From a virus, in the IMG/VR virus record IMGVR_UViG_3300042549_000629, positions 1-23,521 of that record: 23,521 nucleotides of DNA; one strand, written 5' to 3'. Numbering within the stretch: the stretch's first letter is position 1; every line of letters begins with the position of its first letter. The notes beneath the pieces were generated by a model. That model worked only from the letters and a program-made list of their open reading frames with translations. It was not told the DNA's origin and ran no database searches. Made by a program: the position numbers and the translations under genes. Shown piece by piece: positions 4,648-23,521 of this stretch.

Positions 4648-5097
4648 TTATTCCTTAATCCAATGACTTTCCACACATCTCCAACCACGCTTGGACAAAT
4701 CAATGTCGCTGCTACCAGGTTGGGTGGATAAACTTACAGTATCCACTAATTTATCTCGGATAAATCGCTCACAGTCTGTTTGCCATTTTACAAACAGTTC
4801 AGCACTTATACGACTACGTCTAAATGCTGGCTCTACCCACCAAAACAGCTCACGCATACGTTTCTTAGAACTGATCCAAGGATCTTGTTCAACCATGGCA
4901 CCAATCATGCCAACAATTTTACCATCATGTTCAGCCACCATGAGATAATGATTCACTATTAGATGTTTGAGAATTACCACTGCACCAATAGCATCCGCTT
5001 CGGCCCAATCAGAATAATTTACAAGACTTGCAGTTGCAAATGATTTTAATAATTCAAATGTTTGTTCTACGTCTTCAAGTGTTGCTGCTCTTATCAT
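4648..5097 (-). CDS. GNAT-fold acetyltransferase-like protein
   Basis: A 149-aa protein with the GNAT layout: N-terminal IRAATLEDV strand-helix, strand YLMVAEHDGKIVGMIGAMV (51-69), then LFWWVEPAFRRSRISAELF (84-102). The usual acetyl-CoA loop Q/R-x-x-G-x-G/A falls at 93-98 as RRSRIS and lacks both glycines, so CoA binding may be weak or lost. The start ATG overlaps the TGA of the upstream tail gene (ATGA), indicating translational coupling. It ends three bases before the J-like gene. GNAT-like folds occur in virion modules of several phages, sometimes as structural parts. It could therefore modify a host or virion protein, or be a structural relic; the sequence does not decide. Confidence 0.8.
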   Translation of the reverse strand: MIRAATLEDVEQTFELLKSFATASLVNYSDWAEADAIGAVVILKHLIVNHYLMVAEHDGKIVGMIGAMVEQDPWISSKKRMRELFWWVEPAFRRSRISAELFVKWQTDCERFIRDKLVDTVSLSTQPGSSDIDLSKRGWRCVESHWIKE

Positions 5098-6606: not shown

Positions 6607-9003
6607 TTATCTTCTATTTGGAATTGAGCTGCGGCCCTTCTCGGTAACCGCATACAAAAACTCCGGATCACTAGCAACCAACTGTCTAAAGCTGGATGCA
6701 TCTACTGCATTGATGTTGTATGTAACATTGGAACCACCACCACCTAACTGGTTATTTGGCACAATTGTTCCTGCTGTGCGAGGCACAAACAATTCAGGAC
6801 CTACTTCACCTACCATGTATGGCGTATTGCTGTCAACTGGACCACCTTTGGCTCGACCTGGGAATCCTAACATAGATCCAATGACGCTTTGTGCACCGCT
6901 ACCACCAAATATGCCTAATGCCAATTGCTGTGCTTGAATGCGAACGAATTGTTCAATCACGCTGTTGGCAAAGTCTTTGAAACTTAACTTACCAGTCTTA
7001 ACAAAATTTACAATAACATCTTCAATGCCACGAGTAACTGTTGAGAACATGGAACGTGCCTGTTCAGCTGCATTGGTAGCATTTTCAGCATACTGTTTAT
7101 AAGCCTGTTCCCATCCAATTCCAAACTCTCGACTCTTATTAATTTGTTCTTGTGTTTGCTTGCCCTGTTCGTCATAAAATTCACCAATTTGCTTTTTAAT
7201 TTCAGCAATGCGTTCAGGTTTGATAGGCACTAACTCACCGTCTTTTCTGCCCAATTTGCTTTGTTCTTCTTGCAGCTTCTGAGCAATGGCCAAATCTTTT
7301 TGCAATTTGATTGCATTTATAATTTTTTCATTCTCAGTTGCTGTCAATCCAATCATTGCACCTTTGGCAGTGATTGCATTCAGCTGTGCTTGATTTGTTA
7401 AACCCAATGCAAACTGATAAGCTGCTTCGCTGCTGCGTAGCTCTTGCAGGCCAGACACATAGCTCTTGTTGGTAGCGATAGCTACATCAGTTTGTTCTTT
7501 AACATATCTAATAGCCTGAGCATTCTTTAACAATCTTTCTTCTGCTGTTGGATCAATGCCTAATGTTAATTTAATTTTTTCTGCTTCTTGCTGTAAGGCA
7601 ATCACTTGCAAACGACTTCTTGTTAGAATAGCTTCTTGCTGTTGATACAGTTCAGCAGCGTCTTGACCAAGACCAATGCTGCGAGTCTGAATGGTCAATT
7701 GATTGGCAGATTCAATGTTGCCTCTGCTGAAATTTTCAACCAATTGATTATAACTGAGATTTGATGCTCTGATCTGATCAGTAACACGCTGTTCAATATT
7801 ATAAAGTTCCACAGCACCTTTTGCCAGGGCAGCATTTGATCTTGCGGCAATTTCAGCCTCACGTTGTTTAGCACCTTCGGGACCTTTTAATTGTTCATTG
7901 GCATTTACTTCAGAGGTAATCTTAGCAATTTCAGCAGTTGTCTGAGCCGCAATCTTAACTTGCTCATCACGAGTCATAAGAGCCATACTTAAACTATAGG
8001 CTGCTTTGGCATCCTGGATACGCTTAATGCTGGCTAACTCGGCCGCTTCACCCAACTTACCAGCAGTGCCACCTTCGCCAGTTTGTATCTTATTAAAGTC
8101 TGCAAGTTCCTGAGCAGTTGGACCGCCCTGGCCACCTCTGCCACCACCGGCTCGATTGCCCAAGCGTTCCATACGAGCCTTATCAACTAAGTCAGACACT
8201 TTACCCAATCCTGGAATCAGACTGATTAACTTACCCATTTCTTCCACGCCGGCTGCTAACGTTTCAACCCATCCACCGTTATTGATTGCGTCAGCCAAGT
8301 TTCCAAACGCCTTAATCAATTCTCTATCAATTGTTTCTCTTAGTTTTTTAAGTTGATCATTATATTTGTTCAATTGGGCGATCTGGTCATCAGTAAAAGC
8401 ATCTTTACCAGCAGATACTTTTGACCAATCAATTTTCGACGCCTCTTTACCCATAAGTGACACAGCGATCCTGGCCCTTGTTGCTGGATCCTCAATTTTG
8501 GCCAAAGCTGCAATAGTTTCCTCAAGTATAACTTGACTATTTCTTAACTGGCCGTTAACATCAACCGTATTAACACCTAATTCTCTAAAGGATTTTTTAT
8601 ACGCTTCATTGCCATCAGCAGCCTCACCAATGGACACACTCAACTTAGAGGCAAACTTTTCAAATGTGTCAAGATTACCACCAGCCTGGACTAAACTTTG
8701 TTTAAAATTCAATAACGAACTGGCATTGATACCAGTAGCATCTGATAAATCACTTAAAGCATCTACTGAATTTAAGGTTGTCATTGCTAATCCCGCAATG
8801 GCAGTGCCGGCTGCGGCTGCGGCAAAACCTAAGGGACCTAACTTGCCAATGATACCATTTAATGTATTACCAAATGCTCCACCAACCTGGCCAGCACCAG
8901 CAATATCTGATTTTAAGTCATTGATACTTTTCTTAAGACCATTAACATCATTGGCACCTTCTACCCGGGTCTTGATTATAACTTCTTCAATTGTCTTAGC
9001 CAT
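6607..9003 (-). CDS. Tail tape measure protein
   Basis: A 798-aa protein, the longest in the tail operon after the tip and fibre. It has long coiled-coil stretches (about 200-240 and 320-660) and a hydrophobic segment near residues 51-78 (LGPLGFAAAAAGTAIAGLAM). Its C-terminus is lambda-type: FKDFANSVIEQFVRIQAQQL, then AKGGPVDSNTPYMVGEVGPE at 718-737 and an Asn/Gly-rich end. Tape measure length sets tail length at about 1.5 angstrom per residue (family knowledge), giving a tail of roughly 120 nm. A glycine-rich break, RAGGGRGGQGG, lies between the N-terminal part and the coiled coils. It starts at an AAGATATGG context three bases after the previous stop. Confidence 0.95.
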   Translation of the reverse strand: MAKTIEEVIIKTRVEGANDVNGLKKSINDLKSDIAGAGQVGGAFGNTLNGIIGKLGPLGFAAAAAGTAIAGLAMTTLNSVDALSDLSDATGINASSLLNFKQSLVQAGGNLDTFEKFASKLSVSIGEAADGNEAYKKSFRELGVNTVDVNGQLRNSQVILEETIAALAKIEDPATRARIAVSLMGKEASKIDWSKVSAGKDAFTDDQIAQLNKYNDQLKKLRETIDRELIKAFGNLADAINNGGWVETLAAGVEEMGKLISLIPGLGKVSDLVDKARMERLGNRAGGGRGGQGGPTAQELADFNKIQTGEGGTAGKLGEAAELASIKRIQDAKAAYSLSMALMTRDEQVKIAAQTTAEIAKITSEVNANEQLKGPEGAKQREAEIAARSNAALAKGAVELYNIEQRVTDQIRASNLSYNQLVENFSRGNIESANQLTIQTRSIGLGQDAAELYQQQEAILTRSRLQVIALQQEAEKIKLTLGIDPTAEERLLKNAQAIRYVKEQTDVAIATNKSYVSGLQELRSSEAAYQFALGLTNQAQLNAITAKGAMIGLTATENEKIINAIKLQKDLAIAQKLQEEQSKLGRKDGELVPIKPERIAEIKKQIGEFYDEQGKQTQEQINKSREFGIGWEQAYKQYAENATNAAEQARSMFSTVTRGIEDVIVNFVKTGKLSFKDFANSVIEQFVRIQAQQLALGIFGGSGAQSVIGSMLGFPGRAKGGPVDSNTPYMVGEVGPELFVPRTAGTIVPNNQLGGGGSNVTYNINAVDASSFRQLVASDPEFLYAVTEKGRSSIPNRR

Positions 9004-9006
9004 ATC

Positions 9007-9282
9007 TTATTTTCCTAACTCTTTTTTAATATAATCACTAATATGCTTTTTAGTTGGTTTGGTCATACCCTCTGGGAATTGATCACTCCAGCCTTGATCT
9101 AATCGTTTAGCATATGGATACGCGGCGTGTATCTCATCGCCTTGTAGTCGTGTATTACGGCGGGCGTTGCCAGTATCAATGGCAGTATTGTCCTTAAAGA
9201 CTTTATAGGCTTCTTGTGCCAAAGTCTTTGGATCTAATACTTGCTGTATCCGATTTAATCTTTTTACGATTTCGCCCGCCAT
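9007..9282 (-). CDS. Small tail protein, HK97 gp10/gpZ-like (91 aa)
   Basis: A short basic protein containing VFKDNTAIDTGNARRNTRLQ followed by HAAYPYAKRLDQGWS. This resembles the core of the HK97 gp10 / minor tail Z family (YA..ld.G....p.g) that joins head and tail or completes the tail. Unusually it sits between the chaperone and the tape measure instead of beside the other completion genes. ATG at 9280-9282 lies one base after the chaperone stop; its TAA is three bases before the tape measure ATG. Function is inferred from motif resemblance. Confidence 0.68.
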   Translation of the reverse strand: MAGEIVKRLNRIQQVLDPKTLAQEAYKVFKDNTAIDTGNARRNTRLQGDEIHAAYPYAKRLDQGWSDQFPEGMTKPTKKHISDYIKKELGK

Positions 9283-9283
9283 A

Positions 9284-9526
9284 TTATGATTTCCTTACAA
9301 GTTTAAGCAATTCTTCTTCGCTTAGTTGTGGCATAGTATTTTTACCGTCTGCCTTATCCTGCTGATGTCGTTCCCAAGTCATAGACACATCATAGACCAT
9401 TAAATCAAATGTTGTGGCACGACTCGACACTTCACTTGGCAGCAGTCCATAGTGTTTAGCCAATGCCCCAATGGTAATCAATTTTACTGATTGCCAGTCT
9501 GAGCTGTCGATGGCTTGGTCTTTGAC
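9284..9526 (-). CDS. Tail assembly chaperone T extension, made by -1 frameshift
   Basis: Reached by slipping back one base at GGGAAAG (9532-9526) in the upstream chaperone gene. The extension is 80 residues, running VKDQAIDSSDWQSVKL and then ITIGALAKHYGLLPSEVSSR, and ends at TAA 9284-9286. An independent reading would have to start at a TTG (9481) with no clear ribosome binding site, which argues for expression only as a fusion. In lambda the GT fusion binds both the tape measure and the tail tube protein during tail assembly and is absent from the virion (established). The next gene starts one base after the stop. The fused product would be 179 aa. Confidence 0.85.
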   Translation of the reverse strand, partial: VKDQAIDSSDWQSVKLITIGALAKHYGLLPSEVSSRATTFDLMVYDVSMTWERHQQDKADGKNTMPQLSEEELLKLVRKS

Positions 9527-9822
9527 TTTCCCAAGTTTTCATTGATCTTAATCAAGGCCTCAAATACAATATCAATGGGTAGCATTTCTTCATCACCAAT
9601 AACTGGCTTGCCATCCACACTGACAATAATCTTTCTCATTAACGCATTTAGTTGTGTGCCGCTCTGATCTTGCTGAGCACGATAAAAGTCAAAGTATGTA
9701 TGGATATCAACACTATCATACATATAAAACTCAATAGGTTCCCCATACTCTTTGACGATCTTTTCATCATCGAGAACCATTTTTAGTAATTCGGGTTTTT
9801 TTGCTACTTTTGCGATGTCCAT
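9484..9822 (-). CDS. Tail assembly chaperone, G-like
   Basis: A 112-aa protein just upstream of the tape measure module, starting MDIAKVAKKPELLKMVLDDE, with charged helical texture throughout. It occupies the lambda G position. Codons 97-99 are TTG GGA AAG, which places the heptamer G GGA AAG in the correct X XXY YYZ phase at 9532-9526. This is the same heptamer used for lambda G to GT frameshifting (established for lambda). Without slipping, translation ends 13 codons later at TAA 9484. The start lies in GGAAAATAAGATATGG, three bases after the stop of the 56-aa gene. Confidence 0.85.
   Translation of the reverse strand: MDIAKVAKKPELLKMVLDDEKIVKEYGEPIEFYMYDSVDIHTYFDFYRAQQDQSGTQLNALMRKIIVSVDGKPVIGDEEMLPIDIVFEALIKINENLGKSKTKPSTAQTGNQ
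9526..9532 (-). promoter_or_regulatory. Programmed -1 ribosomal frameshift site GGGAAAG
   Basis: On the minus strand the heptamer reads G GGA AAG in the zero frame of the chaperone gene. It is followed by an open -1 frame that runs straight into the downstream ORF. The zero-frame stop lies about 40 bases further on, giving the overlap expected of G/GT systems. I did not find an obvious strong pseudoknot immediately downstream by eye. Confidence 0.85.
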
Positions 9823-9825
9823 ATC

Positions 9826-9996
9826 TTATTTTCCAATCTTATCTTTTAGGTAATGAATAGCACTTAGAACGAAACGCAGTCTTGCGTCTGTTTGTTCTAA
9901 ATCTTTACGAGCGCATTTTAGTTCAGAGATTGTTTTGGCAGCTTCAGCTTCCATGCTCTTTAAAATATCGTGCAGCTCTAACTTATCAAAAATCAT
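9826..9996 (-). CDS. Small coiled-coil protein (56 aa), unknown
   Basis: Reads MIFDKLELHDILKSMEAEAA and onward to AIHYLKDKIGK. It has an excellent ribosome binding site (AGGAGGT, about 6 bases before ATG at 9994-9996). It is almost entirely charged helix with a heptad pattern, suggesting a small coiled coil. It lies between the tail tube gene with its terminator and the chaperone pair, with CTAAATA 24 bases before its start, so it may be the first gene of a separate tail transcript. A role in tail assembly is inferred from position. No family recognised. Confidence 0.78.
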   Translation of the reverse strand: MIFDKLELHDILKSMEAEAAKTISELKCARKDLEQTDARLRFVLSAIHYLKDKIGK

Positions 9997-10081: not shown

Positions 10082-10636
10082 TTAAGCGATAGCTGCCAAT
10101 GTATAGTCACCGTTGACTTCAATTGTAACAGGCGATACCCAAACTGGGCTATCAGCAGACACTTTTGGTGCCAAGCTAGATACGAAACCATTGCCCATGA
10201 TCAAGTAGTTGTCAGGAGTTTGACTTATAGTTGCACCCGATGGAGCAACCATAAATGCCACCTGAATGCGGTTGTTACTGTAACCAAAAATACCACCAGT
10301 TGCAATAGTTGTGTTGGTGCCTGGAGTTGTTCCGAAGAACAATGCTGGATCCAATACAAAGTTGCCGCTTAGGCTGTTTGTAGAAACAGTGGTGATAACG
10401 CTCTCACCTTGTTGGCTCAATGTTTTCCAACGGAATGAACCGTTAGCGTTGTTGATGGTTACGTCTTGTAACCCGGTTAATTCGATTGCACCGCTTACTA
10501 ATGTTAGAGCACCTGTGCCAGCATCAACGGCAGAGTAGAAATCACTACCTGTCAATGTTGCGTGAGCAGTTGCATCATACTTAATAAGAACAAGTTTAAC
10601 CCAATTTTGTTGTGTTGTTGCGTTAATATACGCCAT
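10082..10636 (-). CDS. Major tail (tube) protein
   Basis: A 184-aa beta-rich protein starting MAYINATTQQNWVKLVLIKY and ending VTIEVNGDYTLAAIA. It is followed by a strong terminator and lies between the tail completion protein and the chaperone genes, which is the usual tail tube position. Many Thr/Ser/Gly/Asn residues, no cysteines and no membrane segments fit a hexameric tube subunit. The start follows AAGGAAAC. No C-terminal Ig-like extension is present. Assigned by position and composition; the family is too diverse for motif proof. Confidence 0.78.
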   Translation of the reverse strand: MAYINATTQQNWVKLVLIKYDATAHATLTGSDFYSAVDAGTGALTLVSGAIELTGLQDVTINNANGSFRWKTLSQQGESVITTVSTNSLSGNFVLDPALFFGTTPGTNTTIATGGIFGYSNNRIQVAFMVAPSGATISQTPDNYLIMGNGFVSSLAPKVSADSPVWVSPVTIEVNGDYTLAAIA

Positions 10637-21181: not shown

Positions 21182-23521
21182 TTAAACTGCTGCATCATCA
21201 GCAATATATAACCAAGCAGCACTGGTTGTATTGTAATAGGCCAACTTGCCTTGGTTATCATTGACAGCAGCCATATAACCCACAGCACCCGTAACGGCTC
21301 TCAATGCCACTGCGGTGTAATTAGGCAACTGCACTGGTCTGTTAAACTGTGCTTTGACGCTGTCAAGTGTGGCATAAGTCACTGTGTTGCCCAGGTCTTT
21401 TAATACCAAACTGCCTGTGTTAAAAGTTGCAGCAGCAGCATTCAATGTCATGTAGTTGAATGTGTTAGTGCCACCCTGAACTATAAACGAGTCAGTGCGA
21501 TATGTGGCTGCGGCTGCTGTATGATTTAAAAAGTTAATGCGGTTTGTGGCATTATAACTGGTGTTGTCAGCAAAGCCACGAATACGGAAACCACTGCCAC
21601 CAGCAGTGACATTATAAATGCTTACTGTGCCTGCTACAGTTTGAGTGGTGCCTGTGTGATAGTTGCCGTAACCCACTTGTGTAGTTGTGCCAAACACAGC
21701 ACGATGTGTGCCATTATAGCCTGTGGGTGTAATACCTGCAACCGTGACTTTTGAAGCAAAGCCAAACGGAGCAGTTGTTTGTGCTGCAAATGTAATAATA
21801 CTACGATGCCTAAAAAATGTCAACCCAGTTGTTGTGCCAGCAGTGGTTGCAATAGGTTCACCATCCTGTTCAGCAGCAAGAGTAAATGTAGTTGTTGGGT
21901 TGGCACCTGCTCGCACATAATAAATGTTGCTAGAAACATATCCAGGAAAAGTCATGGTGCCAGTTAGTGTGCCTGTCACACGCACTACATCATATTGACG
22001 AACATCTGCACTGGTATTGGTAAACACACCTGAACCACTACTTACTACTGCGGCAATTGAGAGACTACTTTGAAGAGTGGCAGTAGTTGGTATAGTAATA
22101 GTGCTTTCTGCAAATGTCTGATTGGCAAAGCCTTGCAATTGTAATGGATTCAATGCAAGATTGCCACCACCGCCGTTTTGCGTGCCTACTCTACTGGCAA
22201 AGTCTGTGCCACTATGACCGTTAAAGTTGAAACTGCCTAATGTTGTGGTTGCAGGAACTGCTGCTCCACCCAGGGCATTGGTGCCTGCACTTGTTCGCAA
22301 TGTAAAACTGGGAGCCCCTTGATTGCCAGCACTGGTTTCACCGTGATAGTATGTGGCTGTAAAACCTGAAGTGTATCCTTTTGGTCCAGCAGCATCTGGC
22401 GGGCTACTAATTGCTTCAAATCCATTGTTTCCAGATACTTCACTTGAGTTTGGTAGTGGATCAATAAAAGCAGTGTTGCGAGTGGCCGCTAATTCACCTA
22501 GCACTGTGGTTTGATCGCGAATGCTTTTTACATAAACTGCATTGCTGCCATCAACCGCAAGATCAGCTCCATTAGTTACTGCACTGCGAGCATTGGCGTC
22601 AGTGTAACTGGTGCCACCGCCTGAAGCTGCAATAACTCCATCTACAATAGTGATATTGGTGCCTGCACTGAATGCATCACGAGCACGAGCAGTTGTAAAG
22701 TATAGGTTGGTGCCTTCTGCTAAATCAGTTGTGCTGGTAATAGTAGTGCCAGGTTCGCCTTGTGGTCCGGTAGGACCTGCAACACCCTGGATACCTTGTG
22801 GACCTGTAGGCCCAGTAGCACCAGTAGGGCCTGTAGGACCAGTAGGCCCTGCAACACCTTGGATACCTTGTGGTCCAGCAGGACCTGTAGGACCTGTATC
22901 ACCAGTTGAGCCAATTGCACCAGTAGGACCAGTAGCACCAGTAGGCCCTGCAACACCTTGGATACCTTGTGGTCCAGCAGGACCTGTATCACCAGTTGAG
23001 CCAATTGCACCAGTAGGACCAGTAGCACCAGTAGGCCCTGTAGGACCAGGTGTCAATTCAATAGTGTTAATTGCTGAATCAACATAACCTTGAGTCGCAT
23101 AACCATATGCTTCAACCACAGTGGCAACTCTACCTGCGGTGTAATATAAGTTTGTGCCTTCAGCAATGTTAGTAGTTGTTTTACCTGCCAATTGACCATC
23201 AAATGTGGTGCCAAAATCATTTGTATTGAATTTTTGACCTAGAGTTGACGTAATTGTAGTGGCAAAGTTTGGATCGTCACCCAAGGCAGCAGCCAACTCA
23301 TTTAAAGTATCCAACGTGCTTGGTGCAGCATCAACTAAGGCAGCAACTGCACTGTTGGCGGCACTTGTGGCAGCAGCGTCAGTATAAGTTTTTGTTGCAA
23401 TAGTAGAGTCTACAGCAATAACGCCGGTTGAGCTATCATATGCAATACCAGTGCCAGCACTTACTGCACTACGAGCACGAACATCTGTATAATATTGATT
23501 GGTGCCTTCAGCAATGTTGCT
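21182..23521 (-). CDS. Tail fibre protein, C-terminal part with collagen-like stalk (gene starts at 943)
   Basis: Continuation of the gene that begins at 943; bases 23395-23521 duplicate 1-127. A TTG at 23314 could be mistaken for the start, but the frame is open far upstream ([20 protein letters not shown] precedes it), so that is not the true N-terminus. In order: a short alanine-rich linker, two more EGTNLYYT modules, a Gly-X-Y collagen-like stretch at about residues 430-530 (22750-23050), then a long Thr/Ser/Gly-rich region with repeated beta-strand-like segments. The C-terminal end ([13 protein letters not shown]) resembles the closing domain of many fibre proteins. Collagen-like stretches in phage fibres form trimeric stalks (family knowledge); receptor binding by the C-terminal half is inferred. 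The gene ends 11 bases before a tiny downstream ORF. Confidence is high for fibre and low for any receptor. Confidence 0.87.
22844..23032 (-). repeat. Tandem repeat encoding collagen-like G-X-Y stalk
   Basis: Two nearly identical tandem copies, 22844-22942 (99 nt) and 22943-23032 (90 nt), differing mainly by a 9-nt (Gly-Pro-Thr) insertion. A third partial copy begins at 23033. All steps are multiples of 9 nt, so the Gly-X-Y register is kept. This is a natural site for slippage and length change, and also a place where short-read assembly may collapse or expand copies. Confidence 0.88.
23395..23521. repeat. Terminal direct repeat, copy 2 (circularisation overlap)
   Basis: Exact second copy of bases 1-127. 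It should be counted once. Base 23394 is followed on the circle by base 1. The alternative is that the 127 bases are a repeat shared by two fibre genes of a larger genome, which would make the circle false. Confidence 0.93.

Follow-up and report, generated by a model that had tools for sequence, protein, structure and literature searches.

We report here a locus on the minus strand of a 23,521-base virus record (the whole stretch analysed, referred to below as the window, which carries terminase, capsid and tail genes) that is very probably the G/GT tail assembly chaperone gene of a tailed phage, with a programmed − 1 ribosomal frameshift at the heptamer G_GGA_AAG. The 0-frame (9484..9822, minus strand, including the stop codon at 9486-9484) encodes a G-like chaperone of 112 aa, assigned from its open frame, its relatives and its predicted fold. 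Codons 97 to 99 read TTG GGA AAG in the context ...GAA AAC TT|G GGA AAG|TCA AAG..., which puts the heptamer (9526..9532, minus strand) in the phase X XXY YYZ relative to the G frame, as a − 1 slip requires. Read after a slip, the message becomes GGG AAA GTC AAA GAC... and encodes VKDQAIDSSDW... (extended, VKDQAIDSSDWQSVKLITIG...), and this frame is free of stops until 9286-9284. The T-like domain (9284..9526, minus strand, stop included) would thereby contribute 80 aa of a 179-aa GT fusion.

Further 5' the − 1 frame is shut by a UGA at 9539..9541 (minus strand), nine bases before the heptamer, so that in the window it can be entered only near or after the heptamer. The T frame has its first start codon, a TTG, at 9481, 2 bases past the 0-frame stop, and the stretch that precedes it (GACTGGCAATCAGTAAAA) holds no Shine-Dalgarno-like sequence. 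These features bear out a first-pass annotation, which had put the heptamer at 9532-9526 in the right phase, had the − 1 frame run into the downstream ORF to give 179 rather than 112 aa, and had credited that ORF with a TTG start only and no binding site; all its coordinates and lengths are correct.

Conservation of the proposed slip site and the open frame

Two scans of viral contigs returned 19 and 35 loci, the contigs being partly shared, and yielded a main group of 23 distinct sequences, window included, whose chaperones are 48-94% identical to that of the window. One locus (L002) is cut by the contig end, and what is said of the heptamer covers the main-group loci that contain the region. 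In every one of these (the window and 22 distinct relatives) GGGAAAG occupies the same position, and throughout the main group the − 1 frame runs uninterrupted from base − 6 until it meets a stop 231-258 bases past the heptamer start. In two remote relatives, 34% and 31% identical, the matching place is taken by GGGAAAC, again with an open − 1 frame, and G_GGA_AAC is another standard slip site. The first-pass annotation had named relatives that lack the heptamer, or that have a stop in the − 1 frame, as what would count against it; neither was found in the main group, and the two remote relatives have the AAC form of the site.

The codons of the heptamer are kept far more strictly than their amino acids would demand. 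In a codon alignment of the 23 sequences, Gly98 is GGA and Lys99 is AAG in all pairs, where codon usage predicts pairwise agreement of only 0.38 and 0.51; GGA makes up 19% of the glycine codons in these contigs, yet Gly98 is invariably GGA. When third-position changes were counted on a tree built from the upstream codons only, none fell at Asn94, Leu97, Gly98, Lys99, Ser100 or codons 102-103, against a mean of 6.85 over codons 1-93, where zero was reached only at a methionine, and against 3-10 at other well-kept Gly columns. The cleanest evidence for the heptamer comes from Leu97 and Gly98, because Lys99 shares its third base with the start of the − 1 codon GTC and the later codons are read twice. 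An open frame of 80 codons would arise from composition with a chance of about 0.003 in one sequence and is found in 23/23 distinct sequences, whose alignment is gap-free across 109 bases from the site. The conservation of heptamer and open frame together is more than chance.

The second frame and alternative routes to its product

Beyond the overlap, the codons of T show a pN/pS of 0.47, similar to the 0.37 of G, which indicates that this part of T is under purifying selection. Within the overlap there is little synonymous change in any frame, as double coding predicts, and pN/pS there does not tell the frames apart. Several T residues are invariant, namely V1, K2, W11, G20, A23, Y26, LPS29-31, D41, D46 and W51, and V1, K2 and W11 are encoded 5' of any start codon everywhere but in L029, L030 and L045. 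At these three loci an ATG of the − 1 frame lies six bases 5' of the heptamer, right after the kept UGA (AATGAATG). The model of T is helical (mean pLDDT 80) and matches phage proteins listed separately as uncharacterized, which fits the earlier expectation that an automated annotation would split the pair.

It could be argued that T is a separate gene, translated by termination and reinitiation at a start codon by the 0-frame stop, TTG 9481 in the window, without any fusion. The closeness of this TTG to the stop is in keeping with such a scheme, and so are the codons at the same place in the 23 sequences in so far as 10 are ATG and 3 TTG, some as an overlapping ATGA. The remaining 10, however, are TTA (6), CTG (2), CTA (1) or CTC (1), and at one locus (L006) the first start comes only at base 132 after the heptamer. 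Moreover, the invariance of V1, K2 and W11 although they lie 5' of the start codon would not be expected of a separate gene, and reinitiation leaves the invariant heptamer unexplained; we therefore consider it very unlikely as the route to T. Certain relatives may gain some free T from a separate start, but since that start is missing in 10 of the 23 it cannot, on this comparison, be the conserved feature, and the idea that the downstream ORF is translated only from its own start, which the first-pass annotation had allowed for, is not borne out.

The same fusion would also result if the shift were made by the polymerase during transcription rather than by the ribosome. Slippage during transcription requires long homopolymers, roughly 8 bases or more, whereas the runs at this site are three G and three A only, and we give this route scarcely any credence. 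Nor are slippery-looking heptamers rare in themselves: other in-phase XXXYYYZ heptamers occur in these genes (e.g., AAAAAAA near the G start), as they would if the heptamer and the overlap were coincidental and the T frame untranslated. Those other heptamers are not conserved, whereas the heptamer discussed here, the open frame and the T residues are all kept across the 23 distinct sequences, which makes the probability of coincidence negligible. The interpretation as a programmed ribosomal frameshift, as first proposed, is supported by all of its sequence-level tests.

Proposed mechanism and comparison with lambda

From these features we infer slippage, its efficiency and the roles of the two products as follows. 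The majority of ribosomes would continue to the 0-frame stop and release the 112-aa G protein, while a few, with tRNAs on GGA and AAG, would slip back one base and re-pair on GGG AAA, giving the 179-aa GT fusion. If the analogy with lambda holds, G would bind the tape measure protein, and the tail tube protein would be recruited by the T part of GT; in lambda itself G binds the tape measure protein, T binds the tube protein and the G:GT ratio is ~30:1 (PMC5009743). The heptamer G_GGA_AAG has been reviewed as highly shift-prone in E. coli (PMC5009743). The mechanism is of an already known kind, and the finding leaves the current picture of phage tail assembly as it was.

The likeness to lambda is at the level of the site and its surroundings. 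Lambda G carries the identical GGGAAAG, as had been claimed from the window, in the same phase and near the 3' end of G, with the − 1 frame running into T and the pair located between the tail tube and tape measure genes (PMC5009743). The distances differ: from the heptamer start to the 0-frame stop there are 22 bases in lambda and 46 here, the T part is ~144 aa in lambda and ~80 aa here, and the nearest upstream stop of the − 1 frame is 42 bases away in lambda, whereas here it is the UGA nine bases before the heptamer. An extra small gene also separates GT from the tape measure gene in the window. The proteins, which by eye had looked unrelated, have no detectable sequence similarity between the window's G and lambda G (profile comparison probability 0.1%). 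Haloarchaeal tailed viruses use the same kinds of site in g-t expression, HCTV-5 having G_GGA_AAG like the main group and HCTV-1 having G_GGA_AAC like the remote relatives, with HCTV-2 belonging to the same set (PMC5009743); the likeness is one of sites, and the hosts differ.

Two named phages reached through terminase and tape measure matches were considered as possible relatives. The chaperone of DSL-LC06 is without significant similarity to G, and in Methylophilaceae phage P19250A no in-phase XXXYYYZ heptamer was seen in the overlap. DSL-LC06 is nevertheless arranged in a similar way: its annotated chaperone (L022:20864-21384) ends in A_AAA_AAC with a TAG stop directly behind, while the T frame after it, an open − 1 frame of ~60 aa, carries no annotation, and this is probably a missed GT fusion.

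Sequence around the site and the kept UGA

What speaks against the reading is that, downstream of the heptamer, no stimulatory RNA structure above shuffled sequences was detected in the window (z − 0.28). Over the relatives the mean z for downstream folding was − 0.9 to − 1.2, single sequences ranging from − 5.7 to + 2.0, and a search without pseudoknots gave no consensus structure with covariation there (consensus energy − 0.67 kcal/mol). The 23 distinct sequences make a clean comparative set for studying − 1 frameshift sites without evident structure.

What is kept around the site is sequence. Asn94 is always AAT, which gives the − 1 frame a UGA nine bases 5' of the heptamer in 23/23 distinct main-group sequences, and its zero third-position changes compare with 6-10 at other Asn columns on the tree; the two remote relatives are without this UGA. 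This putative element may guard against other routes into T or may belong to a sequence signal. It can tentatively be hypothesized, though we hold it rather doubtful, that the kept bases (AATGA shortly before the heptamer, TCAAA and CCA after it) serve this phage group as a recoding signal without structure, where the UGA would close the − 1 frame just upstream such that T is reachable only by a slip at the heptamer.

Assignment to the tail assembly chaperones

In the window and its relatives the G/T pair sits between the tube gene, named by position only, and the tape measure gene. In the window these are the probable tail tube (major tail) protein upstream (10082..10636, minus strand), for which the name comes from position and gene order and a profile search gave no family match, and the downstream tail tape measure protein (6607..9003, minus strand; PHROG 24, E 3.5e-23), the expected client of the chaperone. 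The relatives keep the order capsid, terminator-like, tube-like, G, T, small gene, tape measure.

The model of G (mean pLDDT 78) has fold matches to 3fgx (Z 5.8), the HK97 tail assembly chaperone gp13, 2ob9 (Z 5.5, rmsd 5.0, aligned over 96 residues), and YqbN, 3klu (Z 3.8). These Z values are middling, in a range that possibly reflects only a common arrangement, and sequence identity to gp13 and YqbN is 8-12%; nonetheless a solved tail chaperone is among the top-ranking matches, and the predicted fold of G appears to resemble that of the HK97 tail chaperone. The nearest predicted viral structure, the tail assembly chaperone A0A6J5LPC3 of an uncultured Caudovirales phage (BFVD), shows 53% identity and a TM-score of 0.87 to the G model and is of the same family, already named. 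At 114 aa it comprises the G part only, with T-like entries listed apart. A 179-aa entry, D6PII1, is matched by both the G and T models with weak E-values (0.017 and 0.30); its length and double match would fit a G-T fusion. The tail-module context favours the original reading of the locus as a tail chaperone, and the chaperone-like predicted fold is in keeping with it.

Searches of curated collections gave G no significant match to a chaperone profile in Pfam or PHROGs, and no named chaperone family was matched by profile or by sequence. Tail chaperone families diverge fast, and a curated-profile match is therefore not required for membership of G/GT. Sequence searches of solved structures with both alignments returned chance matches only, a tblastn search of 50,697 named phage records with G gave no match, and among prokaryotes, searched with one genome per species, no relative was confirmed. 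The curated libraries searched contain no profile of this G-like chaperone family, and the present analysis settles how it is to be annotated in a group of uncultured phages.

Other frames of the window

The window's minus strand carries several further frames. One of 56 aa (9826-9996, ATG at 9996), situated between the tube gene and G, lies in a stretch that is similar in several relatives, L018 having a frame in the same place, and is possibly a further small tail gene. The small gene at 9007-9282, which separates GT from the tape measure gene, matches tail completion / Neck1 profiles (phrog_169, E 3.4e-4), and the relatives examined have it in the same position; genes of that kind usually lie upstream of the tube gene. 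A GNAT acetyltransferase (4648-5097; PF00583, E 7e-6) lies within the tail module, and an N-acetyltransferase is annotated at the equivalent position in DSL-LC06, between the hub genes of that phage. Finally, a 710-aa frame (21182-23314) encodes collagen-like Gly-X-Y repeats, and its product is perhaps a tail fibre.
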